Assembly (NCBI GenBank): GCA_026770585.1
Contig: MU646323.1
Location: forward strand, 1,344,534-1,368,578
DNA length: 24,045 nt
Direction of reading: 5' to 3'
Origin: Baffinella frigidus
Lineage: Eukaryota > Cryptophyceae > Cryptomonadales > Baffinellaceae
Made by a program: the position numbers and the translations under genes. Below the pieces are notes generated by a model. That model did not search any database. It had not been told where the DNA came from and saw nothing but the letters and a program-made list of their open reading frames with translations. This document shows positions 1,706-20,920 of this stretch, piece after piece. Numbering within the stretch: the stretch's first letter is position 1; each line of letters begins with the position of its first letter.

Positions 1706-2116
1706 ATGGGAAGTAGGCGCAGAGCACAGCCCTCGGGGGACTCAGAGGGCAAGACGGCGACACGCGGGGATGGTGGGGCGGCGCAGGGGGGGCCGTCGCG
1801 GAAACGGCAGGCGCGGAGGCTGAGCGTTCATGACACTGCTGCTGGGTCGGCGGGGGCTGGCTCGGGCGGGCATGAGGAGTCGGGGTCGATCTTAGCTAAG
1901 GTCACGATGTGTTTATCGATGCTGTGCGACCCCAGTGTGCTGGCCGCAAGGAAGGCAGCGCTGGAGGCTGCGCTGACGAAGGTGGCGATGGAGTTTGGGG
2001 GGAAGGAGTTCAGGGTGGAGTGGATACGGGTGGGGCCGAGCGAGGACACGCTGCAGCGGGTGCTTCCGTTGTTGTTGGAGCGCGTGGAGGCGGAAGGTGC
2101 AGCGCAGTGCTTCCAG
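1706..2116 (+). CDS. F-box/WD40 gene exon 1 (N-terminus and first half of F-box)
   Basis: Encodes 137 residues, ending EGAAQCFQ, followed by the donor CAG|GTGAAC. Residues 1-60 are rich in Arg, Gly, Ser and Ala and look disordered. Residues 61-117 look helical, with an Ala/Lys-rich stretch. LPLLLERV at 120-127 is the first helix of the F-box-like motif. Reading past the donor in the same frame runs into proline-rich noise, which supports the splice site. Confidence 0.7.
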
Positions 2117-5100
2117 GTGAACACCCCACCCCCGTCCCTCCCGCCTGATTTAATGCCCCATTGCCCTCGCTGCCACTCACGGCTCGCCAGGCTCACGTGT
2201 TGTGTTGGTTGGGCTAGTCGAGCCGCGACAGCCGTGGTTGATGGTGGACCTTCATGCGCTGGGGCGAGCCTCGGGTGCAGTTTTCCCCAGGGCCTGAGCA
2301 TCGCCCCCTCTCACGGCTCACGCGGCGCATTCAGGTGTGCAAGCCGTGGCGGCGGGAGCTGGAGGCGCGGGGCTTCTGCCACACGACGGCGCAGCTCTGC
2401 TCAGCGCTCGCCGAGGGCCGCGACGTTGGGCGCCTCCGACAGAACGCGCTGCGCCGAATGAACGCGAGCACTTGCAGCGAAACCCAGAGAGCCGTGTGCT
2501 TGGACGGCATGGCATTCCTTCAGAAATCGCTGGGGAGGAAAGGGAGTCTGCGGGAGTGGTTGCAGTCCGCGTCGCAGGAGCCCGACGCGAGCTTCTTGTC
2601 GCGGGGCGGTGCATCGACGGCGCGATGCCTCGGGTTGCCGCTGGTTCGGTGGGTTGGGAAGCCGCAGGGGAGGGACCCTTTCTTGGATACGCTGAGCGGC
2701 CACACTCTCGCTGTGACATCGTTGGCCTTCTCTCGGGACGGAACATGTATCGTCAGTGGCTCGAAGGACAAGCTCGCCAAGATCTGGAACGCCGCGACAG
2801 GGGCCGAGGTCAGCATCCTTGAGTGAGTGCGTTGCGGGTGGTGGGGTGATGGGGGTTCATCCGGGGAAACGTACCATCTTTCAGAATCTGGCAACGAAAA
2901 TCACTATACAATTGGGTCACACGAGTATTAGTAAAGCATGTGTGTAATAATATTTATTTCCAGATTCTAAAAGAAAATACTTTCCCCCGGATTAGAGTGT
3001 TCGTGTTGGGCGTGTGCTGCAGGGCTTTAGGATTTTGACTTTCGACCTCTAAAGTCATGAACATGGCAATGTCATGAACATGGCAACTTTTACCAGATTT
3101 TCTCTGTACCTCCAGGACACGACCGCATAAAATCAGCACCTTTTTCGCTGCAAAAGTTGCCATAATGGCTCCAACCCAACAAGACCGCCGCATGTCTCGT
3201 TCAGATTTGTAAAGCCTGGACGTGATCCCGCGTACCAGACAGCGGACTTCGAAAGAATTTCGTGAATAATCCATAAACGATACGCCATACAACCCTACGG
3301 TAGGCAACAGCGTAGGGACATAGGGGGGTTCCTACGGATAAGGTAACGGAAAATGCCCTAAATTCGGCCAGAAAATGCCTCGGTAGCTGCGTGGTGGTGT
3401 TCTTGCCGGGCGTGTGTTGCAGGAGTTTGGTCTGGGAATGGGTGTGAGGAGAGGGTGGGTGGCATAGGAAGGTAGATCTAAGGCTACCAGGAACCGGGGA
3501 TTGAAACACCCCACACAGCGGACTACGAAGAGATTTTTGGGCTCTCAGAGCCCGAGTTTCCGTTACCTTATCCGTAGGAACCCCACCTATGTCCCTACGG
3601 ATTGCCTACCGTAGGGTCCTGGGTCTTATCGCGTAAGGATTATTCGAGATCCCTTCGAAGTCCACTGTGTGGCATGGCGCTCGTCATCCCGATGAATGAT
3701 CTCGGTGTAGAACAGGACCAGTTTCATCTCGGAAGATAACTGAATCACTTCCTTTTCAATAGGAGGTTGAATAGGAGAAATCAGTCAGGGCATAGTGAAT
3801 TTAATTAGACATCCTAATTAAATGAAAACGCCAATTAGGGAACTGATTCAGTTATCTTTCGAGATGAAGTTGGTCGTCGATAAAACCCCCCCTCTCGCTT
3901 GGTGGCAGGTGCACACGCTGACGGGGCACTCGGCAACAGTGTACTGGGTCGCGTTCTCGCCGGATGGAAAGCGCGTCGTTTCCGCGTCGTGGGACGGCTT
4001 CGTCAAGATCTGGGACGTCGAGACGGGCGCCGAGGTGGGCAGCCCACTTAGCAGCCACCGAGGTCTTCACGGATGCAGTCCATCTAAACTATTTGTACTA
4101 GAATATTATCCATTGCCCTGGATTCCAACTGGAATTTCCCCCGAGAATCCGGGGGGGAATATCTTCGGTCGCGGCTAAGTGATTTGTGCGATTGCGTCGA
4201 GACCACTTCTTATTAGGACTTGGCAATCGAGAATTGGGCCTTGATTTCTGAGGGCCGCTCCCTTACAGCGCTGAGTAATTGAGTATCGGGCCTCAGCATT
4301 TTTCATTGCCCGGCAATCCTGAGAAATCGGGCTCGGGCTCGATTTCTCAGGGCGAGGGTCCACGCCAGGTCAGAAGTCGAAATTTCAACGTTTTTTTATT
4401 TTACTACACAATCTAGAAGTAAAGTTGATTCTGCCCGAGAAACACGTCAAAAGTGTTGGGAATTGGAGCTGTTTGCCGCTGGAGTTTTAAAAATCTGTAC
4501 CACGATGAGCCATCTAAACACTTTTAGCGCGAACGAGTGTGTGTGAAAAAGGAACTTATGACCTGGCGCGGTACACTCAGAAATCGAGATCTGGGCTGGC
4601 GCCCGAGACTTCTAAAACGCAAAAGTTGTAGGAGATAGAGTTCCCTCTGATTCTCGGTTTCTGCGTGTGGATATTTGGGTTTCTTCACACTGCATAATCG
4701 AGGATTAGGAAAATCTGGACCCCCCCTTCTCGATTTTCAAGTTCCCTGTATGCACTGGCCTGAGGGAAGAGATGGGATGCGGTGGCACGGTTGCGGGCGT
4801 TTGCTGCCGGTTTCGCATTGGAAGTGTTGTGAGATGAGGGGGGTGGCAGGTGTGCACGATGAAGGGGCACGGGGGGTGCGTTTGGACCGTTGCGTTCTCG
4901 CCCGACGGGAAGCGCATCGTCAGCGGGTCGTCTGACACTCTCGTCAAGATCTGGAACGCCGCGACGGGAGCCGAGGTGAGAAGCTTTCCACACGGTGGGC
5001 TTCGAGGGTTTCGTTGGGCCTGGATTCCAGGGGGGTACGTGACCAAATTGCACCAGAAAATCTCTCAAGTTTATTTGCATCAAGACAAGTTGACTTTTGA

Positions 5101-7371: not shown

Positions 7372-7492
7372 TACAGGGGTACCTCGCTCATAAGACCCTT
7401 CCCCCCCCAGGATCACCATAGGGCCCTCTAGGCATAGTCCTTCTGTAGGGTCCCAGGGGGGGGCGGTTTCTCAGGAGCAAGATGCCCCTGTA
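7372..7492. mobile_element. Foldback element, TACAGGGG family
   Basis: The left end TACAGGGGTACCTCGCTCAT faces a right end whose reverse complement is TACAGGGGCATCTTGCTCCT. It has internal C- and G-runs (CCCCCCCCAGGATC / GTCCCAGGGGGGGG) and no ORF. The same family occurs at 19041-19157 and, partly, at 18780-18900. It abuts the larger foldback at 7491-7774. Confidence 0.65.
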
Positions 7493-8933: not shown

Positions 8934-9189
8934 TTTTTTGACTACAAAGCACTAACTCAGTCAAAAAAGCTCACTCTTCAGTGACTTACGCCGCTGTCCT
9001 AAAGGACGACACGATCTCAGTGATAAGCTTCATCAACCCCCCCACCCACCACATCAGTGACTTGCGAGGTGATTCAATACGTTGCTTCTCACACAATTTC
9101 TCCCTTTAGGTCCTTTAGGTTTTAATTTCGCCCAACATATGCCAACGACACGCCCTTCCGTAGAAAGGACTGCAGAGAAAGCATTTTTC
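8934..9189. other. Spacer with third copy of the dispersed repeat
   Basis: Contains GTCCTAAAGGAC, a 12-base perfect palindrome near 8997, and the dispersed repeat at 9090-9195 that is also found at 170-285. CAGTGACTTRCG occurs twice (near 8980 and 9054). No gene. Confidence 0.5.
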
Positions 9190-9620
9190 CACACAGATGG
9201 GAGTTTCGTTTCAGGTTTCAGAGAAACCTGCATCCCACAATAGTGGGATTCACAACACAACTCTTATCCCACCAAGTTGGGATTCTCAGAGTCAAACTCA
9301 ATCCCTCTACTGAGAGATTCTCGGACAATTTCTCCCACACAGATGGGAGTTTATTTCAGGTTTCAGGGAAACCTGCATCCCAGAATAGTGGGATTCTCAA
9401 GACAACTCTTATCCCACCAAGTTGGGATTCTCAGAGAACAATCAATCCCTCTGCTGAGGGATTCTCGGAGAATTTCTCCCACACAGATGGGAGTTTAATT
9501 CAGGTTTCAGAGACACCTGCATCTCACAATAGGGGGATTCACAAGACAACTCTCATCCCACCAAGTTGGGATTTTTGGAGTAAGATCAATCCCTCTGCTG
9601 AGGGATTCTCAAACACTCTG
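9190..9620 (+). repeat. Three tandem 145-bp units built of short hairpins
   Basis: Units start at about 9190, 9336 and 9480 with CACACAGATGGGAGTTT. Each unit is a string of small inverted repeats: CTCCCACACAGATGGGAG, CAGGTTTCAGAGAAACCTG, ATCCCACAATAGTGGGAT, ATCCCACCAAGTTGGGAT and ATCCCTCTGCTGAGGGAT, each with a 5-8 bp stem and a 3-8 base loop. Copies 2 and 3 differ from copy 1 mostly outside or symmetrically within the stems. Open frames across it are by-products of the repeat. Confidence 0.85.
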
Positions 9621-10845
9621 AAACAGCAAGTTTGTTGAGGGCATTAGCCCTCGGACTCCATGATAAGGAGATTCTACATGTGACTCTGAGAAGCACATTT
9701 TTGATGGGGTCCGCCCTTGGACTCCCTAATGGGGAGATCCCAATACGTGACTCTGAAGAGCACGTTTTGTCTAGGGCGCTAAGACTCCTTAAAAGGAAGT
9801 TCCTATACGTGATTTTCAGGAGCACGTTGCGTTTCAGGCATTACACCTGAAACTCCCTAATGGGGAGGTCCTAATACGTGACTCTCACAATGATTCTGAG
9901 TAAATTTGAACTCCACATCTATGGGGCCTTCAAACCAAGATTCATTCCACATGTACGGGATCTTCAGAAGAAACTACCATCCACAAAGGTGGAATCCTCA
10001 AACCTGCTTCCCAAAATGATGGGAATATTTGAGGGCTTCAAAATAACAGAACGCCCTCGGACTCCGTAATAGGGAGGTCGTTGACGCAATTCTGAGGAAA
10101 ACGGTTCGTTGAGGGCATTTGCCCTTGGACTCCCTCATCGGTTCGGTGAAGGAGTTAGCCCTTGGACTCCATCATGGGGAGGTCCTAATTCGTGACTCTT
10201 GAGGAGCACGTTTTGTTCAGTGCGTTAGCCCTAGGACTCCCTAACAGGGAGATCCTAATACGTGACTCTTGAGGAGCATGTTTTGCTGAGGGCGTTTCAA
10301 CCTCGGACTCCCCGATAGGGAGGTCCTGTATGTGACTCTAAGGAGCACATTTAGTTCGGGAACTTAGCCCCTGGAATCCATACGTCCTAATACGTAACTC
10401 TCGAGGAGCACGTTTTGCTTAGGGCGTTCACCGTCAGACTCCCTAATAGGGAGGTCCTACAAGTGACTCTTTGGAGCACGTTGCGTTGAGGGTATTGGCC
10501 CTTGGACTCCCTAATAGGGAGGTCCTAATACGTGACTCTTGAGGATCACGTTTTGTTCAGGGCGTCAGCCCTCGGACTCCCTCGCAGGGAGGTCCTATAC
10601 GTGACTCTCAGGAGCATGTTCATTTAGGGCGTTCGCCCTTGGATTCCCAAATAAGGATTCCCTAATACGTGACTCTTGGGGAGCACGTTTGGTCCTATGT
10701 GACTCTTACGAGCACGTTTCGTTCAGGGTATGAGCCATTTGACTCCCTAATAGGGAGATCTTATCACGTGACTCTTGAGCAGCACGTTTGGTTTAGGGCT
10801 TTGGCCCTCGGACTTCAATAAGGAGGTCTTAATACGTGACAGTCT
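9620..10845 (+). repeat. Minisatellite of about 70-bp units, each with two hairpins
   Basis: About 15-17 units of 61-71 bp, interrupted by non-repeat sequence around 9890-10080. The core of a unit is GAGCACGTTTTGTTCAGGGC, then GTTAGCCCT, CGGACTCCCTAATAGGGAGG, TCCTAATACGTGACTCTTG. Two stems recur: AGGGC-loop-GCCCT and CTCCCT-loop-AGGGAG, the second extended by GGAC/GTCC. One unit replaces the first stem by TTCAGG/CCTGAA with both sides changed. One unit is truncated to about 29 bp at 10682-10711. Similar hairpins (CCATCCACAAAGGTGG, TTCCCAAAATGATGGGAA) lie in the interruption. Confidence 0.85.
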
Positions 10846-11223: not shown

Positions 11224-11412
11224 ATGCGCCCCGAGGTGCTCCTCCCAGCGTGGACGCGCCTCGCAGCTGCGCGCCCGCTTAGGTCTCGCATTCCGCCGAG
11301 GCGCGACGGCGCGCGGGCGCTGAGCAGCACACCGGGCGGACCGCCGCTGCAGAAGAAGAAACCTGATCTGCCACCAGTCTTCCTCGTGCACGGTTTTCGT
11401 GTGCTCACCAAG
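11224..11412 (+). CDS. Hydrolase exon A: presequence and oxyanion-hole strand
   Basis: 63 codons from ATG to ACCAAG|GTGCCT. Residues 1-36 have nine Arg, no acidic residue except Glu4 and Asp28, and an RALSST site, typical of a mitochondrial presequence. PDLPPVFLVHGFRVLTK at the end fits the first core strand and the HG oxyanion turn of alpha/beta-hydrolases. A possible acceptor (TTCCTCCCAG) lies upstream at 11180-11189, so the ATG could also be in a second exon. Splicing before GTG and phase 0 match the other genes in the window. Confidence 0.5.
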
Positions 11413-14400
11413 GTGCCTACCCTTCTCCCGCCCCCACCACCTGCTCCGCGTCCTAGGTCCTTTAGGTTCTTTAAACTCCCACCATGGGCGGACACTGGGA
11501 CTGGTTCTGCAGGATGGCCCTGCTTCCTTTACGATCGCTCCAAGCCACCGCCTTCATCCTACCCGCAGCACCTCGCATTCTCAGCGGCAGCTGCATCCAA
11601 CGGTTGATTCTGCAAGGGGATCTGTTACCTGTGGATCCTGTATGCCACGGCTTCCCAACCTCGTCCGCAGACTGATCCCTGGTTCAAGCCGTATGAACCG
11701 TGCCAGGGCGGCAGGACACGGTTGAGATGACGTCCTGCATCGAACGGTTGATCCATCCAGGATGCCATCCAGGATGGTGCGCCCAAATAGATAGACCGAG
11801 GCAGGGCTGGGGGCTCATCGCGTCCCTAACGAAACAACCCAAAATCGAGGTAGACTGAGAACTAGGTTCACACAAAAACCGCTTTGACGTGTTGCGCCTG
11901 ACCCCGTGAAACGGGGAGTAACACGTGTGCGTCGCCGCAGGACACGGTGGAGGAGCCGTCCCTTCTCACGTGTACCAGTTGACACTTAACCTCTGTTGCA
12001 ACAATTTTTTATCTGGCAAATGGCGGCAGGACACGGTTGATGAGACGTCCCTGTCCTCGATGGACGCCGCGCTCGTTCGCCGCGGTCAGCTAACCCCGCC
12101 AGAGGCCTCGAAACATCTACGTCTTGACATCTCTCACCGGAACACCGAAGGATTTTCAGAGTCACTTTAGCCAGATCTGGCAAAGATAAGACAGTCATTT
12201 CTCTCGATTCCTATGGCGCGGAATGCCGAAAGCACTGTTTCCGTCTATTTGGGTTCACCAATCTAGTGAGCCCGGGCTCTTTCCCGCTCCAATTTTTTGA
12301 GCCCGGGCTCTTTTCCGCTCCGAAGTTGACGAATTTGTACCGCACACCCAGCATGTTAACTTCAGAATAGTCGGTCCACCCTAGTGATGCAGAGCTAGAA
12401 TGCTTCCTCTAGCCCTCCTCGCTCCAGAATTTCGCTCGTGCCATGTTTTCCGGGTCTGTACTGTAGGGGGTGGTTTGAAGGGGGTGGTTCGTGTGGCGAC
12501 GCCCTCATTGTATCACTCAACTCAAGGCTAAAGGGCCTATCTAGGACCTGTGTCGAGAGTAATAAAGAAGAAGAAGAAGAAGCGACGCCCCCCTGGTACA
12601 AACCGGGATTTGCCAAACGAGCAAACCCCTAAACACTAAACCCTGCACCCTACTCCCTAAACCCCAAACACGAAACACGAAACACCTCACTTCGGTGGGC
12701 CGATGCATAGCCGCGGTTGGCCTAAATTGCGCCCTGTAATAGCTCCAATTGCTGACTTTTGGCGTGTTTGCTGGGAAAGAATCCATTTTTTTTTAGGCGA
12801 ATCCCCACTTGTCCACACGAGGTAGATATCTATGCGAACAGAATAAACGCAAAGATATCTATGCGAACAGAATAAATGTCGATTGTAAACGTTTGTAGTA
12901 ATTTTCAGATGAAAAACAGCGACTTTACACAGGTCCGACCGCTCAGCGGGCGGAAACGTGATCATTTTCCCACAAAACTTTAAAAGTCCGTTTTATTCTG
13001 TTCGCCTGGGTAGCCTCGTGTGAGTGACCTGGCGTGGCCCAAACCTGAAACCCTCAACCCTAAAGCACCACCCCGGCCATAACCGCCGTCACATCGGCAC
13101 ACCGCCGACTCGAAACCCTAAAAAGAAACCCGAGAGGGCTTTTGACGCCAAGCCCCAACTCCAGAAAGATTTTGACGCCAGACCCCAACCCCGGCAGGGT
13201 ACCAAAACGTGCACAGATTCGACTACCCTTCGCGGGAGGATTCGCTTCAGGTTCTCCTGAAAACCCTAAACGCTTAACCCCCTGATCCCTAAACCCTGAG
13301 CCACAGAATCCTGAACCCTGGACCCTGAACTCTGAACCATAAATCCTGAATCTCAAATCCTGAACCCTAAACCCTGAACCCTGGACCCTAAAACCTACAC
13401 CCTAAACCCCACACTCCACACCCGAAACCCTTCAATACGTTTTGGGCAGCGTGGGTAGAGGCCTCACTTCATCGATGCCTCGTGGTTCTGAACCAAGCAA
13501 TTAATAAAGGTCTCTCTCTCTCGGTAGGACACGACACAGGACACGCGGGTAGGGCCCTACCACAGAAGAGGCTAGGATTAGGATTAGTACTTATCCTAGC
13601 CTCTCTGTGAGCAGAACCACGCAGCGTCGCTCGCGGACTTCATTTCGCGCCAACTCTCTCCTCCAGAAGCCGCAGGTGCCCTAGCCCATGAACCCTAAAC
13701 CCTACACCCTAAACACTAAACCCTGAACCCTAAACCCTAAACCCTAAACCCTAACCTCAAACCCTAAACCCTAAACCCTAAACCCTAAACCCTCAACCCT
13801 GAACCCGAAACCCGAAACCCTAAACCCCAAACCCGACAGGGGCGGGGGGGCGCGGGCAACTAGGGCCATTCGGGGTGGTAACGCACTCGTTTGGGGGGGT
13901 TGTCGCGAGAGCAGCCCTCAACCTTCTCCAGGTGCATCCGGACACATGATGAATTCCAATGAAACAAACCCCCTAATTGCAATAGGAGTTGGACCAAGGG
14001 TAATTAGCGCCCTATTTAAATTTGATTAGGGCCAGAATCCTGTTTGTTCGTCCATTTTTACAGCTCTCTCCATCCCCGCGTGGAACTAGGGGCGTTCGGG
14101 GTGGTTTCGCACTCGTTTGGAGGCTGCCTTCAACGTCCTTCAGGTGCACTCACAGACAGGGGGGTTTGTCTCGATATTTTAAACCACAGTAAAGCTACCA
14201 ATTTTATTACGATATTTTGAAGCCGCTCATTTTATTCGCTTCCCTTTGGAGGGTGGTTGTTGGGAGGCATCGGCGCGAGAGCTTCGCTCAACGTGCTCCA
14301 GGTGCTCAACGTGCTCCAGGTGCATCCACAGACATGCCACCAGGCTTCCGAACCGAGTTTGGTCCTTCGTGATCCTACCGTAGTCCAACTTGTTGCAGGC

Positions 14401-17400
14401 GATCCCCCAGGTGCATCCACTCATAAGATCTAATCCGGGAACATCATTTAATTTGATAAAAATGGGCAACAAAATTTGCTACACTAAAGGCTCCCACTAG
14501 TAATAGCAACGCAAATGTGTGGCAAATTTCGTTGCCCAATTTTTATTTAGTTAAATGATGTTCCCGGATGAGATCCACGGATCGGTGGAGGGAAGGACTC
14601 CTCTCGCTCCGTACGCCTCCTTGCAAGTAGCCGCATACGTGCTGACCAGACACTCCGTACATATGTTAGGCCCATTCCTCTCCAACTAATCCTCCACATG
14701 CACATAAAGCTCATACGATCTCAACAAAAGCTCCATATGCTATAGCGTGCAGGGTCGGGGAGAGCACCCCGGGGAGCGAGCAGGGGTGCGAGTGGTGACG
14801 TAGTTGAATACCGTATATGACACACCCTGGATACGAGCAGATTTCTGCGCTAAACCCTAAAACCCACACCCCAAACCCTAAACCCTAAACCCTAAACCCT
14901 AAACGCTAAACCCGGAACCCGGGTCGGGGGGAGGTGCCAACGGACGGAGCAGGGGTGCGGGGGGTGATGCTGGCTACGGCAGGCCCTACAGCGTGTACCA
15001 TCTCAAATGCTCTATCTCAAATGCTCAAATGCATCAAATGCCCCGAAATCAAATGCTCAAATGCTCGATATGGCGTGCAGGGGTGGGGAGAGTTGCCTCC
15101 GGACGGAGCTCATCCGGGACCATGTTCTTAGGGCCCTATTTAACCTTCGTCCAACTCCTATAAACAAATAGGGATCCATTTTTTTGAAATTAAACAATTC
15201 CCCGGATTAGAGCAGGGGTGCGGGTGGTGACGTCGTTCAACACCGCATACGACACACCCTAGATACGAGCAGATTTCCGCGCTAAACCCTAAAAACCACA
15301 CCCCAAACCCTAAACGCTACACCCTGAACCTTGGGTTGGGGTTGGGAGGAGCTGCCTCCGGACGGTGCGGGGGTGCGGGTGGTAATGCCGTCTAAGGAAG
15401 GCTCTAGACCGCACTTAACCCTAACCCCCACCAACGAAGCTCTAAACCCTAACCGCGCACCCCTGAACCCGAAACAAGGTTCGAGGCGAGCTGCCTCTGG
15501 ACGGAGCAGGGGTGCGGGTGGTGATGTTAGCGCCGCCGAACAAGGGCTGCTCGCTCGCGCGCGCTCTCCGCCCCGATGCGGTGCGCAACGCAGAAAGCCA
15601 ACGTTATCGGTGGACTTATTTAGACGCGGCGCAGTACAAAATGTACAATACAAAACAGTTCAGCCCTTCAAAACACCCACAATTTCTTGAAAAACTATTT
15701 TTAGAACCTTATGTCCGCCGGTAGATGGTGATGCTGGTGCCGCCGAACATGGGGTCTTCTCTTGCCCGCGCGCTCCGCCCTGATGCGGTGCGGGCCTGTC
15801 GTGAGGCGGGCTCTACCTCTGCGCCGAACGCCAGTTCGGCGGTGTTGGTAGCACTCAAGGTCTCATTACTAAACCCTCAACGCGGAACGCCAACGCTAAC
15901 GGGGGACTTGAAAGTCGGCCGGTTGCGGTGGACTTAGCCTTGAAAAAAAGTTCCTCGCTCGCGCGCGCTCTCCGTCTCGATGCGGTGCGGGCCTGCCAGT
16001 CCCGAGCCGGGCCCTACCTCTGCCTGCGTTGATCTGGTCTCCTCCAAATGAGGAGGAGACCGGAAGTTGATTACCTGGGTCTGTGGTACAAATCCGTGAA
16101 ATTGTGGTGTGGAAACGATCAGTCGACCCGACGCACGCAGAGCTGGTATCTGTGAACGGTTCTCGCATGAGGCCAGGTCGGTAGTTGCGGCAGCGCGGAG
16201 TCAGGTCCAAGCTGTGTTGTTATTAATCCAGATCTCGCTCCTACGAGCTGAGTTGGTAGCAATCAAGGTCTCATTACTCTCATGGCAGGCGAACTCGGTG
16301 GTGGCGACAGCTCGGTGATAGGGAGCTACCTTGGGTAATAAGGTAGGGTGGTACGGAATGCCGTAATCTGGTTGAAGCCATACTTAGGCTGTCAACCCTC
16401 CAACGTTTCTCACATGGCAGGCCAATTCAATGATGGCAGCAGCGGCTCTCAACTATGCGTTCGACTATTTCCTCGGGAACAAGGCCGGCCTCGAACTCGG
16501 TGGCCCACACCCCAAACCTTTAAGAGTTCAGGGTTCAGGGTTTACCGCTAGACAACCCTAGACCCTAAACCCTAAACCCTGAACCCTAAACCCTAAACCC
16601 TAAACCCTACACCTTAAACCCTAAACCCTGAACCCTGAACCCTAAACCCTAAACCCTAAACTCTAAACTCTAAACACTAAACCCCAAACCCTAAACACTA
16701 AACCCTGAACCCTAAATCCTAAATCCTAAACCCTAAACCCTAAACCCTCAACCCTCAACCCTAAACCCTAAACCCTAAACTCTAAACCCCAAAGCTCAAA
16801 GCCTTCACCTTAAACCCCAAACCCTAAACTCTAAACCCTAAACCCTAAACCCTTAACCCAAAACCATGAACCCCAAACCCTAAACCCTCCCTCCCGAATT
16901 CAATTTTGACCTCTCATCTAAGGGGTAATCGATCTTCGACGAAACCCCCTCACACCAAACCCTAACCCTCAACCCCTGTCCACTGCAGCGTCGGGCGATG
17001 AGTTCCCAGCACTCCCCTCGCGCTGTGAGGCGCTCGTCATCGCTGGGAGCCTTGGTGCAGGCGGGAGAATGTTCCACTCTGAGGGCAGGCGGGTTTTTTT
17101 CCCGTAGTTCCGCCTAGCTGTTTGCTTTACAGTAAACTCTAAATCCCGCCCCTAAACCCTAAGAACGTCTGGCGAGGAATTCCCAGCACAGCCCTCGCGG
17201 TGCGAGGCGCTGGTCATCGCTGGGAGTCTGGGGGCGGGGCATCCGCTTTCGCCTCAGCGCCCGAGGTTTTAGGGTGTAGGGTGTAGGGGGTATGGTTTAC
17301 TTCACTAACCCCTACCCCCTGTCTACCGCAGCGTCCGGCGAGGAGTTTCCAGCCCTACCCTCGTGCTGCGAGGCGCTGGTCATCGCTGGGAGTCTGGGGG

Positions 17401-18135
17401 CCTCACACCCGCTGCTCTCCGGAATCACAGACGGTACGCACGCCCCCCCTTCACCTCCTTACAACCTTGTGTACAAACGGGCGAGTCGTTTTTGCTGATA
17501 CGTTGAGACGTTTTCGGGTGGGGCACCCGCTGCTCTCCAGAATCACTGATTCTGCTCTCCGACACGCACCCCCCCCTCGTGTGCAAACTTGATTACACAT
17601 GATTTCTTGCAACCCCAGCTACCCTCCTCGCAAATGTCTGTACAACCCCCCCTTCCGTGCAAAGTTGTGCGCACATGTTTCCCGCACTCTCCGGGCAAGT
17701 TGAGTGTGTCCCCAGACGGCACGAACCTCCCCTCTTTACAACCCCAGTCCCCTCCTGGCAAGCTTGTGTACGAGGGCATGCAAGGTTTTGGGGCGTTCTG
17801 GAATCACAGACCGAACGCATCCCACCCCCCCACACGATGGAATACGAGGTTTTCATTTTAAAAGCAGTCTCGTTTAATTTCATTTATATCAGCCCTTTTC
17901 TGGTACAAACTTAGTTACCCCAAACCCCAAACTCTAATAAACCCCAAACACAGGGGTGGTGACGGAGGAGGAGACAGGGCTGCAGACCCCCCACGCGCGC
18001 ATGACCCTCACCGCTCCACACCACTTGTACTACCCCTCCTCACCCCCCCCCCCATTTCAAGGAATGTTGATGTTTAATCATCCCTCTACAGCATTTGGGA
18101 AATGCTGTAGAGGGATGAACCTCGCCGCTGCGTGA
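11224..18135 (+). CDS. Alpha/beta-hydrolase (lipase/esterase-like), multi-exon gene with amplified exons, possibly broken
   Basis: Best exon chain: 11224-11412 (presequence, VFLVHGF), [unfound exon], 13615-13675 (NHAASLADFISRQLSPP), 13840-13931 (VTHSFGGVVAR elbow), one of several MLAPPNKGS exons (best 15488-15580), [possible small exon], 17332-17433 (ALVIAGSLG), 17954-18135 (DGVVT, HH, stop). These motifs occur in the same order in bacterial-type lipases/esterases of the alpha/beta-hydrolase fold: oxyanion HG, GxSxG-like elbow, RVVMLxPPNxGS, VIAG strand, Asp-containing DG, then His. Junctions 13675/13840 (or 13864) and 17433/17954 join in frame. The Arg-rich start suggests import into a mitochondrion. 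The substrate is unknown. It may be an active gene with alternative exon copies or a decaying one, because I could not find the strand-helix exon expected between HGF and the elbow. Confidence 0.55.
11413..11708. other. Intron-like region after hydrolase exon A
   Basis: Begins GTGCCTACCC with a C-rich run. One frame reads MGGHWDWFC at about 11484, which is reminiscent of the region after HG in hydrolases, but I see no acceptor that joins it in frame. TCCTTTAGGTTCTTTAAA resembles part of the dispersed repeat at 170-285. No exon called. Confidence 0.35.
11709..12053 (+). repeat. Three copies of a GCAGGACACGGT repeat
   Basis: CGGCAGGACACGGTTGAGAT at 11709-11728, GCCGCAGGACACGGTGGAGG at 11934-11953 and GGCGGCAGGACACGGTTGAT at 12023-12042 share a core, followed by (A/C)CGTCC. 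The first copy forms a hairpin, GCAGGAC...GTCCTGC. An open frame over the last two (ATG 11925, 81 codons) contains SSMDAALVRRGQLTPPEASK, unassigned; it could be a repeated exon family but has no recognised domain. Confidence 0.5.
12267..12322 (+). repeat. Tandem copies containing GAGCCCGGGCTC palindrome
   Basis: TGAGCCCGGGCTCTTTCCCG and TGAGCCCGGGCTCTTTTCCG follow each other 31 bp apart, both continuing GCTCC. The 12-base core GAGCCCGGGCTC is a perfect palindrome in both. It could be a binding site pair or a hairpin duplicate; nothing else is visible nearby. Confidence 0.7.
12323..12813. other. Non-coding region with short repeats
   Basis: Includes a GAA microsatellite (about 12556-12571), a short degenerate telomere-like run (about 12625-12690), and a dispersed repeat at 12745-12790 (AATTGCTGACTTTTGGCGTG) that recurs at 20922-20963 as AATTGCTGACTTTCGGCGTG. 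No exon of the hydrolase was recognised here. Confidence 0.5.
12814..13022. mobile_element. MITE-like element with CACACGAGG ends
   Basis: The left arm CACACGAGGTAGATATC...GCGAACAGAATAAA faces a right arm whose reverse complement is CACACGAGGCTACCCAGG, GCGAACAGAATAAAAC. The motif GATATCTATGCGAACAGAAT is also directly repeated at 12825 and 12854, so the left arm was duplicated. About 209 bp, no ORF. Confidence 0.7.
13047..13430 (+). repeat. Degenerate telomere-like sequence in two blocks
   Basis: Short runs at 13047-13066 and a longer one at 13261-13430 with CCCTAAA, CCCTGAA, CCCTGGA and TCCTGAA units. Between them, 13110-13260 has a duplicated GACGCCAAGCCCCAACTCC / GACGCCAGACCCCAACCCC pair with a 78-codon open frame and no motif. 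The blocks lie in the interval where a missing hydrolase exon would be expected. Confidence 0.65.
13561..13609 (+). other. Strong hairpin next to hydrolase exon B acceptor
   Basis: CACAGAAGAGGCTAGGAT at 13561-13578 pairs with ATCCTAGCCTCTCTGTG at 13593-13609: 17 pairs with one bulged A. The right arm is the pyrimidine-rich tract five bases before the exon B acceptor (GAGCAG). In RNA the stem would sequester that tract, so it could affect splicing, or it may be a small inserted foldback. Confidence 0.7.
13615..13675 (+). CDS. Hydrolase exon B: helix before nucleophile elbow
   Basis: Bounded by GTGAGCAG|AAC and GCCGCAG|GTGCCC. It encodes NHAASLADFISRQLSPPEAA plus one base. In related lipases a helix of the type (A)xxLAxFI directly precedes the elbow strand, and joining to exon C gives EAAG...GPFGVVTHSFGG without a frame break. 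61 nt, phase 0 at the start and phase 1 at the end. Confidence 0.5.
13676..13839 (+). repeat. Telomere-like intron between hydrolase exons B and C
   Basis: Begins GTGCCCTAGCCC and from 13687 is almost pure CCCTAAA with some CCCTGAA, CCCTACA and CCCGAAA, ending CAAACCCGACAG. If 13840 is the acceptor, the whole intron is donor plus telomere-like array plus CAG. This is the second gene in the window with such an intron. Confidence 0.65.
13840..13931 (+). CDS. Hydrolase exon C: nucleophile elbow (live copy)
   Basis: Ends CTTCTCCAG|GTGCAT. It reads GPFGVVTHSFGG followed by VVARAALNLLQ. VTHSFGG fits the nucleophile elbow of lipases of this type (xTHSxGG), with Ser as the candidate nucleophile, and VARAAL is the following helix. 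The start is taken at 13840 after CCCGACAG. A second in-frame acceptor after CAACTAG (13863) would remove a Gly-rich octapeptide. Two decayed copies follow at 14081-14143 and 14247-14301. Confidence 0.55.
13932..14080. other. Spacer after exon C
   Basis: Starts GTGCATCCGGACACATGATG. It holds an AT-rich stretch with AATAGGAGTTGGACCAAGGG, related in reverse complement to the interior of the MITE at 15110-15209 (CCTTCGTCCAACTCCTAT). This may be a MITE fragment. No exon. Confidence 0.45.
14081..14143 (+). pseudogene. Dead copy of hydrolase exon C (C2)
   Basis: GGAACTAGGGGCGTTCGGGG, TGGTTTCGCACTCGTTTGGA match exon C and encode FGVVSHSFGG. About 14 bases between the elbow and the last six codons are missing, so the ending GCCTTCAACGTCCTTCAG (AFNVLQ) is out of frame. 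The donor CAG|GTGCAC is kept. The Thr-to-Ser change and wobble differences suggest it was coding before the deletion. Confidence 0.55.
14247..14301 (+). pseudogene. Dead or partial copy of hydrolase exon C (C3)
   Basis: TTTGGAGGGTGGTTGTTGGG ... GCGCGAGAGCTTCGCTCAAC ends CTCCAG|GTG. It keeps FGG and ARASLNVLQ but lacks the VTHS strand upstream. The last 18 bases (GTGCTCAACGTGCTCCAG) are tandemly duplicated, which gives a second donor at 14319. A trace of the following intron start (CCAGGTGCATCCAC) appears once more at 14407. Confidence 0.5.
14431..14571. mobile_element. MITE, TNATCCGGG family, with GATC duplication
   Basis: The ends are TAATCCGGGAACATCATTTA and its inverted partner TAAATGATGTTCCCGGATGA, with AAAAATGGGCAACAAAATTT / AAATTTCGTTGCCCAATTTT just inside. 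Both flanks are GATC (14427-14430, 14572-14575), a perfect 4-bp target-site duplication. 141 bp, no ORF. The most complete of the three family members here. Confidence 0.8.
14572..14756. other. Spacer, no gene seen
   Basis: Unique-looking sequence with no exon signature. It leads into the first decayed copy of the MLAPPN exon. Confidence 0.4.
14757..14800 (+). pseudogene. Dead copy of hydrolase exon D (D0)
   Basis: GGGGAGAGCACCCCGGGGAG then GAGCAGGGGTGCGAGTGGTG keeps the GAGVRVV portion in one frame but the start has changed and a stop follows. The 100 bp after it (GACACACCCTGGATACGAGC, GCGCTAAACCCTAAAAC) match the sequence after D2, so exon and intron were copied together. Confidence 0.5.
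14850..14912 (+). repeat. Telomere-like run between exon D copies D0 and D1
   Basis: About eight CCCTAAA or CCCCAAA units. It starts within the duplicated flank GCGCTAAACCCTAAAA, which also begins the run at 15281. Thus the telomere-like seed was copied with the exon, and the array then changed in length. Confidence 0.75.
14931..14980 (+). pseudogene. Partial copy of hydrolase exon D (D1)
   Basis: Reads EVPTDGAGVRGVMLATA, matching ELPLDGAGVRVVMLAP of the best copy, then diverges. The PPNKGS turn is lost. Downstream are four AAATGC-type repeats (TCAAATGCTC), about 15003-15065. Not expected to give a working hydrolase. Confidence 0.55.
15081..15240 (+). pseudogene. Copy of hydrolase exon D (D2) split by a MITE
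   Basis: The left half (15081-15109: GGGGAGAGTTGCCTCCGGAC, GGAGC) and right half (15210-15240: GAGCAGGGGTGCGGGTGGTG, ACG) form one exon D copy. They are separated by the 100-bp element at 15110-15209 with a GAGC duplication. Removing element and duplication would give back LPPDGAGVRVV. The right side then decays (GACGTCGTTCAAC). Confidence 0.65.
15110..15209. mobile_element. MITE, TNATCCGGG family, inserted in exon D copy
   Basis: Ends TCATCCGGGAC and CCCCGGATTA, 100 bp, flanked by GAGC on both sides (15106-15109, 15210-15213). The interior includes AGGGCCCTATTTAACC and AACAAATAGGGATCC, a second short inverted repeat. Because the target exon copy is known, both element ends are fixed exactly. 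Confidence 0.8.
15281..15335 (+). repeat. Telomere-like run before exon D copy D3
   Basis: CCCTAAAAACCACACCCCAAACCCTAAACG-type units fill the interval between D2 and D3 and end TTGGGTTGGGGTTGGGAG just before D3. A further run lies at 15417-15475 (CCCTAACCCCCACCAACG, CTCTAAACCCTAACCG). These would be intron interior if D copies are exons. Confidence 0.65.
15349..15405 (+). pseudogene. Partial copy of hydrolase exon D (D3)
   Basis: After GTTGGGAG it reads ELPPDGAGVRVVMPSKEGSR. The first 13 residues match the family, but LAPPNKGS is replaced by PSKEGS, as if bases were lost. It merges into telomere-like sequence. It could still be spliced in but would lack the PPN turn. Confidence 0.5.
15488..15580 (+). 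CDS. Hydrolase exon D: best copy (D4)
   Basis: Reads ELPLDGAGVRVVMLAPPNKG then CSLARALRPDA and ends GATGCG|GTGCGC, 31 codons. In lipases with the VTHSxGG elbow, the strand RVVMLxPPNxGS follows the elbow helix by 15-25 residues, which fits here. The start has no clean AG directly before GAG (AGGCGAG), so the exact acceptor is uncertain. The donor GTGCG is shared with D5 and D6. Confidence 0.5.
15725..15787 (+). CDS. Copy of hydrolase exon D (D5), short
   Basis: After CCGGTAG it reads MVMLVPPNMGSSLARALRPD then A, ending GATGCG|GTGCGG. It lacks the ELPPDGAGVR start but keeps the PPNxGS turn and helix in frame with codon-third-position changes relative to D4. It may be an alternative exon or a 5'-truncated copy. 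Confidence 0.45.
15845..16447 (+). repeat. Repeats of two short motifs after exon D copies
   Basis: GTTGGTAGCACTCAAGGTCT and GTTGGTAGCAATCAAGGTCT (continuing CATTACT) occur at 15845 and 16252. A second motif, CTCNCATG(A)GGCAGGC...GGTGGTGGCGACAG, occurs at 16162-16198, 16277-16314 and 16409-16447 and reads in one frame as ARSVVAAARS, ANSVVATAR and similar. They could be a further exon family of the hydrolase, but no motif identifies it. Confidence 0.5.
15940..15984 (+). pseudogene. Partial copy of hydrolase exon D (D6)
   Basis: Only SSLARALRLDA remains before GATGCG|GTGCGG; the MLAPPN portion is replaced by AT-rich sequence (TTGAAAAAAAG). The flank GGGCCTGYCRGTCC and GGGCYCTACCTCTGC after the donor is shared with D5, so again exon and intron were copied as one unit. 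Confidence 0.5.
16505..16890 (+). repeat. Largest telomere-like array, with strand switch
   Basis: About 330 bp of CCCTAAA with CCCTGAA, CCCTCAA and ACTCTAA variants. At its left edge the sequence is on the other strand (GTTCAGGGTTCAGGG at 16521-16535), then flips at about 16540-16555 to the C-rich strand. The head-to-head junction suggests inversion or two separate events. It ends about 100 bp before exon E1. Confidence 0.85.
16989..17063 (+). CDS. Hydrolase exon E, copy E1
   Basis: Preceded by CCTAACCCTCAACCCC and CTGTCCACTGCAG. It reads SGDEFPALPSRCEALVIAGS then LGAGG and diverges. The VIAGS strand matches the strand that precedes the catalytic Asp in this hydrolase type. It has a good acceptor but lacks the SHPLLSGITD end, so it is likely a truncated alternative. 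Confidence 0.45.
17166..17245 (+). pseudogene. Copy of hydrolase exon E (E2), acceptor lost
   Basis: Reads SGEEFPAQPSRCEALVIAGS, LGAGHPLSPQ. The bases before it are CCCTAAGAA instead of CGCAG, so no AG sits at the homologous place. After the match, a GTTTTAGGGTGTAGGGTGTA telomere-like run on the G-rich strand follows. Differences from E1 and E3 are mostly at third codon positions. Confidence 0.5.
17332..17433 (+). CDS. Hydrolase exon E, live copy E3
   Basis: Acceptor CTACCGCAG|CG and donor ATCACAGACG|GTACGC. It reads SGEEFPALPSCCEALVIAGS then LGASHPLLSGITD. It begins in phase 1 and ends in phase 1. The last base G joins GG of exon F to make GITDGVVTEEE, where Asp in TDG is the candidate catalytic acid, as in the VIAGxxxxNPxxxxxPGPxDG pattern of related lipases. 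Confidence 0.55.
17434..17953 (+). repeat. Intron before exon F with decayed exon E ends
   Basis: CCGCTGCTCTCCAGAATCAC at 17528 and GGAATCACAGACCGAACGC near 17799 repeat the end of exon E and the start of its intron. CGTGTGCAAACTTG, CCGTGCAAAGTTGTG and GGCAAGCTTGTGTACGA repeat a further segment. The last 35 bp (CCCCAAACCCCAAACTC ... CCCCAAACACAG) are telomere-like and serve as the acceptor region of exon F. Confidence 0.5.
17954..18135 (+). CDS. Hydrolase exon F: catalytic Asp/His end
   Basis: After CAAACACAG it reads (G)VVTEEETGLQTPHARM then TLTAPHHLYY and stays open to TGA at 18133-18135. Joined to E3 it gives ITDGVVTEEE, the expected Asp-Gly with following strand. HH in APHHLYY fits the C-terminal catalytic His. 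Codons 18079-18117 come from a perfect inverted repeat, so the last 20 or so residues may be a recent addition or the true end may be a donor near 18027 (TT|GTACTA). Confidence 0.5.
18078..18118. other. Perfect 19-bp hairpin with GGG loop
   Basis: TCATCCCTCTACAGCATTT and AAATGCTGTAGAGGGATGA are exact reverse complements separated by GGG. It lies at the very end of the hydrolase reading frame. It could be a miniature foldback insertion, an RNA 3'-end processing element, or a small-RNA precursor. The sequence shows only the symmetry. Confidence 0.85.
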
Positions 18136-18145
18136 CGTTACGTTT

Positions 18146-18214
18146 CGTAAACTAGAGAATGGTTCAGGTTGCCACACCACCCGTCGGCGATCCGGACAAC
18201 GCTCACGTTCCTAG
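18146..18214 (-). pseudogene. Minus-strand repeated exon, copy 2 (RNVSVVRIADGW)
   Basis: On the minus strand it reads RNVSVVRIADGWCGNLNHS, aligned with RNASVARIADGWRGSLRTV at 18400-18474. Several differences are silent. The acceptor CAG has become CA (TGCACTAGG), so splicing here is doubtful. Its 3' end lies close to the end of the hydrolase gene, so the two transcription units converge. Confidence 0.45.
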
Positions 18215-18312
18215 TGCATGAAAGCTACAGGGGTATCTCGAATACAAAAGCCTGCAGCCCTCATGCGGACCACTTTCGACGCTGAGCGTCTCGACTGTTC
18301 TCTCTTTCCCCA

Positions 18313-18365
18313 AAGGTATCGAACGGTGTGCAGGTTGCCATCGTCTGACTGTTTACTCCGAAGAG
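18313..18365 (-). pseudogene. Minus-strand repeated exon, copy 3 (partial)
   Basis: Reads SDDGNLHTVRYLWG on the minus strand, matching the ADGW(R)GSLRTVL portion of the 18400-18474 exon. The RNASV start is absent. It is a decayed third copy. Confidence 0.35.
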
Positions 18366-18399
18366 GCCTCCGATCTTGACATTCAACAACTGAGTTCAC

Positions 18400-18474
18400 T
18401 TTCCGTAAACTTGAGAACGGTGCGCAGGCTGCCACGCCATCCGTCGGCGATCCGGGCGACGCTCGCGTTTCTAG
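18400..18474 (-). CDS. Minus-strand exon RNASVARIADGWRGSLRTVL (unassigned)
   Basis: Acceptor GGTCGGCAG, donor ACGGAAA|GTGAAC on the minus strand, 75 nt. It reads (..)RNASVARIADGWRGSLRTVL then KFTE. The product family is not recognised. The third-position changes against copy 2 (AGA/AGG, GTC/GTT, GGA/GGG) indicate that it has been protein coding. It is probably part of the same minus-strand gene as the PDZ pieces, which I cannot prove. Confidence 0.4.
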
Positions 18475-18489
18475 CTGCCGACCCCGTGC

Positions 18490-18650
18490 CTGGCGCCATC
18501 TTCGTGCCGTGACGCGGCGAGAACAGGCTAGCCCCGTAGCCTCCAGAGGAGGGAATACATGTACATGACGGACACAAGGAGTGATCATTTCCCCAAAGAC
18601 GTGCTGCTTTGTGCCGTGACGTTGCGAGAATGCGAGCGCGTGCGCGGGGT
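18490..18650 (-). repeat. Repeated segment around FSQRHGTK
   Basis: CTTCGTGCCGTGACGCGGCG at 18499 and TTTGTGCCGTGACGTTGCGA at 18608 are related, as are CTTCGTGCTGTCTCAGAG (18774) and CTTCGTGCAGTGACGCTGAG (18903). On the minus strand two of them read FSPRHGTK and FSQRHGTK. Each is followed on + by AGAGAAYA and often by a TACAGGGG-type foldback end, so this may be the outer part of that element instead of an exon. Confidence 0.45.
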
Positions 18651-18779
18651 ATCTCGAATACAGAGAGGTCTCTATTGATTCCAGGGCTGCTTGCTTGGGT
18701 ACATGCTCATTCCGTGTGTCCATCTCCACTTCTCGTGTGTGTTCTTGGTGGCCGACCCTGTGCCTGGCTCCGTCTTCGT

Positions 18780-18985
18780 GCTGTCTCAGAGAGAACAGTC
18801 TACTGGGATACCTCGCGCATATGGAGCCGTGAACCCCCTAGGACCACCGTAAGGGCATAGATAGGCCGACTGTGGGGTCCCAGGGGGGTGCGTAGTACCC
18901 TCTTCGTGCAGTGACGCTGAGAGAATAACTACTGGCCACTTAAGGGATAGCCTCCATACGCGGGAATGAATTAACATGATACCGT
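18780..18985. mobile_element. Degraded foldback elements (TACAGGGG and TTAAGTGGC families)
   Basis: CTACTGGGATACCTCGCGCA starts a half element with CCCCCTAGGACCACCGTAAG and GTGGGGTCCCAGGGGGGTGC, as in 7372-7492. ACTACTGGCCACTTAAGGGA, TAG at 18930 is an end of the 7491-7774 family. Only one end of each is present. Confidence 0.5.
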
Positions 18986-19040
18986 GCAGGTATCAATAAA
19001 GGTCTCTGTCTTCGCAACGGAGGCTGCAGAGAACATTCTA

Positions 19041-19157
19041 CAGGGTTACCTCGCTCATAAGAAAGCGCCCCCCCTCCAGGACCACCATAGGGCCCTAGGC
19101 ATTGGCGTACTGAAGGGTCCTAGGGGGATGCGCTTTCTTATGAGCGAGGAACCCCTG
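19041..19157. mobile_element. Foldback element, TACAGGGG family (complete)
   Basis: The left end CAGGGTTACCTCGCTCATAA, GAAAGCGC is matched by a right end whose reverse complement is CAGGGGTTCCTCGCTCATAA, GAAAGCGC. The centre has AGGACCACCATAGGGCCCTA / AGGGTCCTAGGGGG. 117 bp. The ends are closer to each other than in the 7372-7492 copy, which suggests a younger insertion. Confidence 0.75.
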
Positions 19158-20349: not shown

Positions 20350-20920
20350 CTGCAATCCAGGGGTTTCCCGAATTTAAGGCTCATGGAGAGCTAGGTGGTG
20401 GAACATGCGAAAGATCTTTCTCAGGACATGGGTTCCCCGAATTGAAGGACATGCACCGCCTTAGGGTCGTACAGTAGGGCTAGTCCTAGGAGCATAGGAC
20501 CACCCTAGGGGTGGTGCGTGTTCTGGATTTCGAGTAACCCATGTACAGGAAAGGAAGGTGAGGAGAGAGAGAGGGGCGGGTGAGCGCGAGGGTCGGCTTC
20601 GTCCGTCCTGCTTTCGTACTGGCGTGTCCAAGTTTAGTACGGGCACGTCCCAAATAAATACACTCGGACTTTCATCGGGGTTCGAGCAGCTGCTTCTGCG
20701 CCTGCATCACAGGACAGCCACGCCAGGTCACAGAGAAGAATTAAAGGTTGAGGCTCCCTCCTGGTAAAAGTGTTCCCTGGTACGAATGAAACAGCATTGT
20801 GCATTGCAATTGTTCCAGTTGATGACATTTGGCGCGTTTCCGTGGGCAGGCGAGGAAACCCTCACCACTCGGGACACGACGAGGAACCGCAGCACCGGAT
20901 ATCCGGTGTAACGTGTCCAA
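20350..20920. repeat. Decayed fourth copy of the PDZ-end block and spacer
   Basis: CAGTAGGGCTAGTCCTAGGA, GCGGGTGAGCGCGAGGGTCG and GAGCAGCTGCTTCTGCGCCT repeat the flanks of copies A-C (which have TCAGTAGGGCTGGCCCTAGG, TGAGCGCGAGGGTCAGC, ATCAGCTGCTTCTGCACCT). The coding core is disrupted by about 70 extra bases near 20600-20690. The rest to 20920 shows no exon. Confidence 0.5.

Follow-up and report, generated by a model that had tools for sequence, protein, structure and literature searches.

What has become of a gene whose parts recur, exon by exon, along several kilobases of its own locus? An earlier note on a contig of Baffinella frigidus, a single-celled cryptophyte alga from the Arctic (assembly GCA_026770585.1, contig MU646323.1) had recognized the motifs of a lipase/esterase in repeated single exons and proposed either a gene in decay or a locus able to choose between exon versions. 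We analyzed the whole 24,045-nt stretch containing this locus (contig positions 1,344,534 to 1,368,578), hereafter the window, in whose own coordinates all features are given; the exons and copies of the lipase-like gene described below all lie on the plus strand. The G+C content of the window is 54.6%. For Baffinella sp. CCMP2293, passages of the genome report give 53.9% G+C and an assembly of 534.5 Mbp with 41.1% repeats (PMC9756366).

In a protein search, a provisional join of the motif-bearing exons matched P0001, a 155-aa hypothetical protein from Baffinella frigidus. In a translated search, P0001 proved to be this very locus, matching it in five segments (11224–11412, 12027–12086, 13197–13250, 13612–13680 and 13827–13946) that are identical to the window save for residues read over splice edges. 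It is a truncated model that ends after the fifth of ten exons, a warning that automatic gene models in Baffinella can miss half a gene. The exons beyond e5 were revealed by the relatives P0002–P0005, again by translated search, including a match to the last exon at 18438–18497. Together, the ten exons span 11224–18512 and are separated by nine GT-AG introns of 164–1547 nt.

Exon e1 (11224–11412), identical to P0001, runs from the start codon to VFLVHGFRVLTK and carries VFLVHGF near its end. The next four exons all lie within P0001: e2 (DTVDETSLSSMDAALVRR, 12030–12084, with AG and GT at its edges), e3 (YQNVHRFDYPSREDSLQ, 13198–13250), e4 (NHAASLADFISRQLSPPEAA, 13615–13675) and e5 (13840–13931), the last containing the nucleophile elbow THSFGG, with VTHSFGG at 13878. 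Exon e6 (VRGELPLDGAGVRVVMLAPPNKGCSLARALRPDA, 15479–15580), which is D5 in its copy series, reads MLAPPNKGC, has phase 0 on both sides and was aligned to P0002–P0005. Translated search, the join and alignment to the relatives placed e7 (ANSMMAAAALNYAFDYFLGNKAGLEL, 16421–16499), e8 (SGEEFPALPSCCEALVIAGSLGASHPLLSGITD, 17332–17433; E3 in its copy series, with VIAGSLG at 17379) and e9 (GVVTEEETGLQTPHARMTLTAPHH, 17954–18026). Lastly, e10 (LPRHPSAIRATLAFLAADPVPGAIFVP, 18428–18512) ends with the stop codon TGA and shows 70% identity to P0002 over 20 aa. Splice phases match at 9/9 junctions, giving an 891-nt frame from ATG to TGA that encodes 296 aa; in the DGVVT motif, the D closes e8 and the G straddles the e8/e9 splice. 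The join, the alignment and the copy search bear out the initial reading that the motifs follow the order of one alpha/beta-hydrolase with exons amplified singly. That reading had missed the coding exons e2, e3, e4, e7 and e10 and the extra copies of e2, e7 and e10, and e10 lies beyond the interval 11224–18135 that it covered.

The joined 296-aa protein scored 28.1 bits against Abhydrolase_6 (PF12697; Pfam cut-off 26.3), the type of profile match anticipated in the earlier note. Matches of separate exons to unrelated families, which that note had considered as a counterargument, did not appear, as none of seven single exon pieces rose above the Pfam cut-off for any family. From VHGF through the last exon, the protein aligns with P0002–P0004 at 46–49% identity. 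It keeps 96 of 138 invariant positions, every exon contributing some of them, where invariant denotes identity in the closest relatives at columns with at least three of P0002–P0005. S136 in THSFGG, D244 in DGVVT and H267 in APHH occur in the order Ser, Asp, His and face S125, D238 and H261 of P0002, positions that vary little or not at all across 34 relatives; by family comparison, these three residues form the probable catalytic triad. A fold was predicted for the relative P0002 only (34 sequences, pLDDT 79.6). Lipases top its PDB list (E 4e-9, TM 0.53–0.54 by query length, 50 of 1449 matches listed), and the best matches are the bacterial-type alpha/beta-hydrolase lipases 1ex9 and 5h6g, at a sequence identity of merely 16–21%. 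A PDB search by sequence with the joined window protein as query gave no match. Given the family, the conserved residues and the proximity of the predicted P0002 fold to bacterial lipases, ester hydrolysis is the likely activity of the joined protein.

These data bear directly on decay, by which the locus would be a pseudogene falling apart. The early end of the public model P0001 fits such a reading, as does the result that two lipase protein searches contained no full-length protein of this gene. However, one intact copy is present for each of the ten exons, splice sites and phases are correct, the frame stays open to the end, no disabled frame or splice site occurs in the joined model and the probable catalytic triad is retained. 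The image of an exploded, decaying gene is therefore not supported, and we consider a pseudogene very improbable; the locus is probably one complete, working ten-exon gene for an alpha/beta-hydrolase of the lipase/esterase type.

What, then, are the additional copies? Fragments accompany six of the ten exons, namely e2, e5, e6, e7, e8 and e10, and were defined by alignment, with a splice check for D6 and E1. Two e2 copies with AG at the edge cover exon bases 1–31 (11715–11743; score 85, below the largest null of 91, end-probe P=0.0025) and 1–36 (11941–11975; score 91, equal to the largest null). The elbow exon occurs three times, at 13878, 14077 and 14257–14301, as had been counted before. Its second copy (14077–14143) lacks the first 11 bases and is frameshifted by an internal gap, and the third (14257–14301) is a 3′ fragment of bases 48–92; both are followed by GT.

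The e6 series is the largest. The previous estimate of about seven MLAPPN exons agrees with seven traces starting near 14753, 14922, 15081, 15340, 15479, 15725 and 15943, but the MLxPPN string is found in only two of these, 15479–15580 and 15725–15787. Because the two read MLAPPNKGC and MLVPPNMGS, the motif PPNKGS reported earlier is a blend of both. D1 (14753–14801, bases 1–49) has AG at the edge; D2 (14922–14980, bases 1–59) and the 5′ part D4 (15340–15387) do not. D3 (15081–15233), likewise a 5′ part, is split by a 102-bp inverted-repeat element at 15109–15210 into pieces scoring 111 and 96, below the largest null of 115. Downstream of e6 follow D6 (15725–15787), consisting of the last 63 bases, and D7 (15943–15984), a 3′ part with subsequent GT.

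Two acceptor-side fragments of e7 lie at 16155–16195 (31/43 columns) and 16272–16311 (30/40; end-probe P=0.0025). The threefold occurrence of the VIAG exon also stands, with VIAGSLG at 17036, 17213 and 17379. Exon e8 is preceded by E1 (16989–17058, bases 1–70, with a possible in-frame end at 17054) and E2 (17166–17247, bases 1–82, exon edge without AG). It is followed by a copy of bases 37–100 (17481–17549) and a copy of the exon end plus following intron (17793–17833), both with an edge lacking GT. Copies of e10 comprise bases 1–51 with AG at the edge (18168–18217) and, downstream of the gene, bases 6–83 of 85 (18702–18784); the latter and the 15943 region look like decayed whole exons. Most extra copies are indeed broken, as the earlier note had stated, being truncated or out of frame.

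The truncations have a direction. We aligned every exon to the whole window after masking the place of that exon, using as null the best scores on the reversed, complemented and reverse-complemented sequence, with at most eight matches listed per exon. Sixteen matches beat the largest null. Four weak ones (scores 88–95, 6–16 kb away, three of e5 and one of e9) were dropped as chance. The 12 nearby copies belong to e5, e6, e8 and e10, score 117–293 versus largest nulls of 87, 115, 96 and 96, respectively, and have starts that range from 726 nt upstream to 446 nt downstream of the respective exon start. All six upstream copies start at exon base 1 and stop short of the 3′ end. Base 1 is present in 0/6 downstream copies, five of which reach within 2 bases of the exon end; the sixth picks up again beyond a gap and extends as far as the donor. 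For the retention of base 1 (6/6 upstream versus 0/6 downstream), the Fisher P=0.002 is a guide only because the copies are not independent events. The resulting polarity count of 12/12 leaves out the e2 and e7 copies and the D3 pieces, which did not beat the null; the two e2 and two e7 copies, although below it, are all upstream and all from the acceptor side, in agreement with the polarity. Of the 11 upstream copies, 8 have AG at the exon edge, the exceptions being D2, D4 and E2; of the 6 downstream copies of internal exons, 4 have GT at the edge and 2 lack it.

In addition, the two ends of every exon served as probes of up to 65 nt, which were compared with the adjoining introns using 400 shuffles. 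At P<=0.005, upstream matches were obtained for 6/10 5′ probes and 1/10 3′ probes, and downstream matches for 1/10 5′ probes and 4/10 3′ probes. One of the six upstream 5′ matches (e5) consists of CCCTAAA flank only, not exon, and the downstream 5′ match is the e5 copy without its first 11 bases. The upstream 3′ match, from e3 at 12926–12984 (P=0.0025), runs against the polarity rule, and three more upstream 3′ probes (e5, e8 and e9, P=0.0075–0.0175) lean against it.

Homology between copies and exons is not confined to coding sequence. It runs through the acceptor into the intron for e2 (9–10 nt), e6 (D2 and D4), e7, e8 and e10, and through the donor clearly for e5 and e8 and over 5 nt only for e6 (D5 versus D6 or D7); these comparisons leave out E1 with E2 and E3 with E4. 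D6 and D7 share more donor-side intron with each other than D5 does with either. Such continuation into introns is what duplication of a unit spanning the edge would produce. In a blastn self-comparison of the window, with arrays masked by a hand-made list, we found 39 direct and 8 inverted pairs, and within 1 kb 27 direct versus 1 inverted. The 27 local direct pairs are spaced 132–941 nt apart (median 288), with nine in the lipase gene, seven in a neighboring WD40 gene, ten outside both and one straddling an edge. Local direct repeats are thus also found outside exons, and short tandem duplication is therefore general in the window, the exon fragments marking the places at which it hits exons.

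The exon copies themselves are in direct orientation, adjoin their own exon and keep the exon order. Tandem duplication of the whole gene was rejected, since the copies of each exon cluster together and the clusters follow the exon order. The same arrangement argues against fragments copied in from a paralogue elsewhere by ectopic repair instead of local duplication, and no second Baffinella-named protein was among the best 120 of 1506 matches, most of which are nameless. Such an origin would account for the synonymous differences among copies described below, but we judge it exceedingly improbable.

With polarity, direct orientation, homology over splice sites and similar repeats outside exons all observed, we consider an intact ten-exon gene, with the fragments as by-products of short tandem duplications, to be the best explanation and hold it with moderate confidence on the sequence data. 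Frequent short tandem duplications, many of them over an intron-exon edge, would lengthen introns. A duplicated piece reaching from the intron into the exon, or from within the exon into the intron, would spare the working exon and leave a fragment in the intron. A remnant upstream would then be an exon start and a remnant downstream an exon end. With just one homologous splice site of the two, such a fragment should be passed over in splicing and add no more than length to the intron. We infer that the full exons are the spliced ones, that the fragments are ignored by splicing and that one endpoint of most duplications lay within an exon.

The neighboring WD40-repeat gene (1706–7261) has eight exons encoding 632 aa, seven GT-AG introns, all of phase 0, and four 126-nt WD exons. 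Multi-repeat WD40 proteins were among the 120 of 7211 protein matches listed, which also included P0139, a different Baffinella WD40 protein with 52% identity over 67%. Exon-start fragments were noted at 5218–5258, 5303–5321, 6011–6048 and 6318–6366, not all of them above shuffled scores: 5303–5321 (19/19 identical) and 6318–6366 fall below the best shuffled score. The stretch 6011–6043 is found 74 nt upstream of the matching W4 start (6085–6116), with 29/33 columns identical. End probes matched upstream for 3/8 (5′) and 0/8 (3′) and downstream for 3/8 (5′) and 1/8 (3′), one of the three upstream 5′ matches (w8) being array flank only. Because the four 126-nt exons are copies of one another, upstream and downstream are indistinguishable in the introns between WD exons. 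The fragment 6318–6366, an exon start downstream of the last WD exon, goes against the polarity rule. The WD40 gene has fragments too, but the polarity rule there is not clean and not confirmed.

The WD40 exons share flanking intron (4792–4870 versus 6047–6125, 72/79 identical), and because the four 126-nt WD exons are fixed as real repeats, whole-exon duplication does occur in the window. This lends weight to another origin of the lipase fragments, as whole-exon duplicates once used as alternative or extra exons that later lost one end, the polarity then reflecting which splice site was lost. Wider homology between 15517–15822 and 15724–16023 points the same way, as do synonymous differences. 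Reading copy differences in the exon frame, we compared synonymous and nonsynonymous changes (S:N) in 16 valid pairs, which include D5/D4 and D2/D4 and leave out the out-of-register D5/D3b and four D3 rows. The check on such differences suggested by the earlier note gave a divided answer: five pairs show a synonymous excess (E1/E3 9:2, E1/E2 8.5:2.5, E2/E3 5.5:2.5, D5/D6 9:4 and D6/D7 8:5), but in the other 11/16 it is not significant. For the five, P=0.0005–0.013 if both copies were free of constraint and P=0.015–0.17 if one was dead from birth, which is weak after 16 pairs; in those with a live exon, the latter test gives P=0.015–0.10. For E1/E2, neither of which is the present e8, P=0.0034 with both copies dead, which speaks for some use in the past or for serial copying of a living exon. 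The excess in E1/E3, E1/E2 and D5/D6 would be expected from whole-exon origin. On the other side, polarity of 6/6 and 6/6 is unexpected from random decay, and the e2, e7 and D1 copies stop early, those tested (one e2 copy and D1) having no synonymous excess. We regard this origin of the fragments as unlikely.

Could any copy serve as an alternative exon today? Most are unfit: either truncation has deprived them of one homologous splice site, or they do not keep the frame. Searching for full exons with both splice sites and the same phase, we found only D6 (15725–15787) for e6 and a 66-nt version of E1 (16989–17054) for e8, both shortened. Both are flanked by AG and GT, contain no stop and are in the right phase, such that of the Dscam-like choice proposed earlier, in-frame replacement by D6 or E1 is conceivable and replacement by most other copies is not. 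Both also belong to pairs with synonymous excess. However, D6, which reads MLVPPNMGS and is the best candidate, is 13 codons shorter than e6, and E1 in place of e8 would delete ASHPLLSGITDG with the probable catalytic D244; moreover, E2, whose exon edge lacks AG, has a similar excess. Use of D6 and E1 as real alternative exons, on a much smaller scale than in Dscam, thus appears improbable from their sequences.

Several other repeats share the window. CCCTAAA-type arrays, of the plant-type telomere repeat, were detected by repeat scan on the plus strand at 13691–13834, ending just before e5, at 14850–14920 before copy D2 and at 16554–16888 before copy E1. A fourth array lies at 6614–6878; all four are degenerate, intronic and C-rich on the coding strand. 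CCCTAAA-type repeats occur in the 60 nt before the acceptors of e5, e6, e9 and the WD40 exon w8 (4/16 introns), and the arrays may also serve as branch point and pyrimidine tract. A MITE-like element is suggested by three pairs of inverted ends resembling CTMATCCGGGRA, 102–143 bp apart (2856–2995, 14430–14572 and 15109–15210), of which the copy interrupting D3 has AG on both sides and that at 14430–14572 has AT on both sides. The end pattern, with a total of 11 versus a chance mean of 7.4, is not above chance, and the evidence is the pairing. Between the two genes, tandem arrays at 9189–10840 comprise a 144-bp unit (2.9 copies) and a 68–70-bp unit (~8 copies). Furthermore, a dispersed repeat flanks the lipase gene on both sides in direct and inverted orientation (7372–7490, 18801–18892, 19039–19157 and 20427–20547). 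An Rfam search over the whole window gave no match.

Beyond this locus, we suggest only tentatively that Baffinella may experience standing, genome-wide short tandem duplications over splice sites, exposing the birth of longer introns and of occasional in-frame alternative exons such as D6 and E1. If true, such a process could contribute to a genome whose assembly, in Baffinella sp. CCMP2293, is put at 6.1 times the size of that of Guillardia theta in the genome report passages (PMC9756366). Views of intron growth and of the trial of new exons usually rest on inference from a handful of isolated cases; in a gene with oriented fragments beside six of ten exons, the process could be measured directly. 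Among the literature matches listed, we found no report of this exon-fragment pattern in Baffinella.

Three known systems offer comparison. In Dscam-type mutually exclusive tandem exons, one gene carries several neighboring copies of one exon. The Baffinella locus is alike in having neighboring copies of one exon in one gene, but almost every copy in it is cut short and has lost one homologous splice site, such that no more than two could be spliced in. A model of tandem duplication of exonic sequence shares the idea that such duplication reshapes exon-intron structure; it involves exon sequence only, whereas homology in Baffinella crosses splice sites. Closest in form is the potato RdRp gene, where, according to passages of its report, the 3′ portion of an intron was directly duplicated in tandem together with the 5′ portion of the exon that follows, giving rise to a new spliced intron (PMC4974935). 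In that single gene the outcome was a new intron, whereas in the Baffinella gene fragments of six of the ten exons have accumulated on both sides of exons and seem to lengthen the introns.
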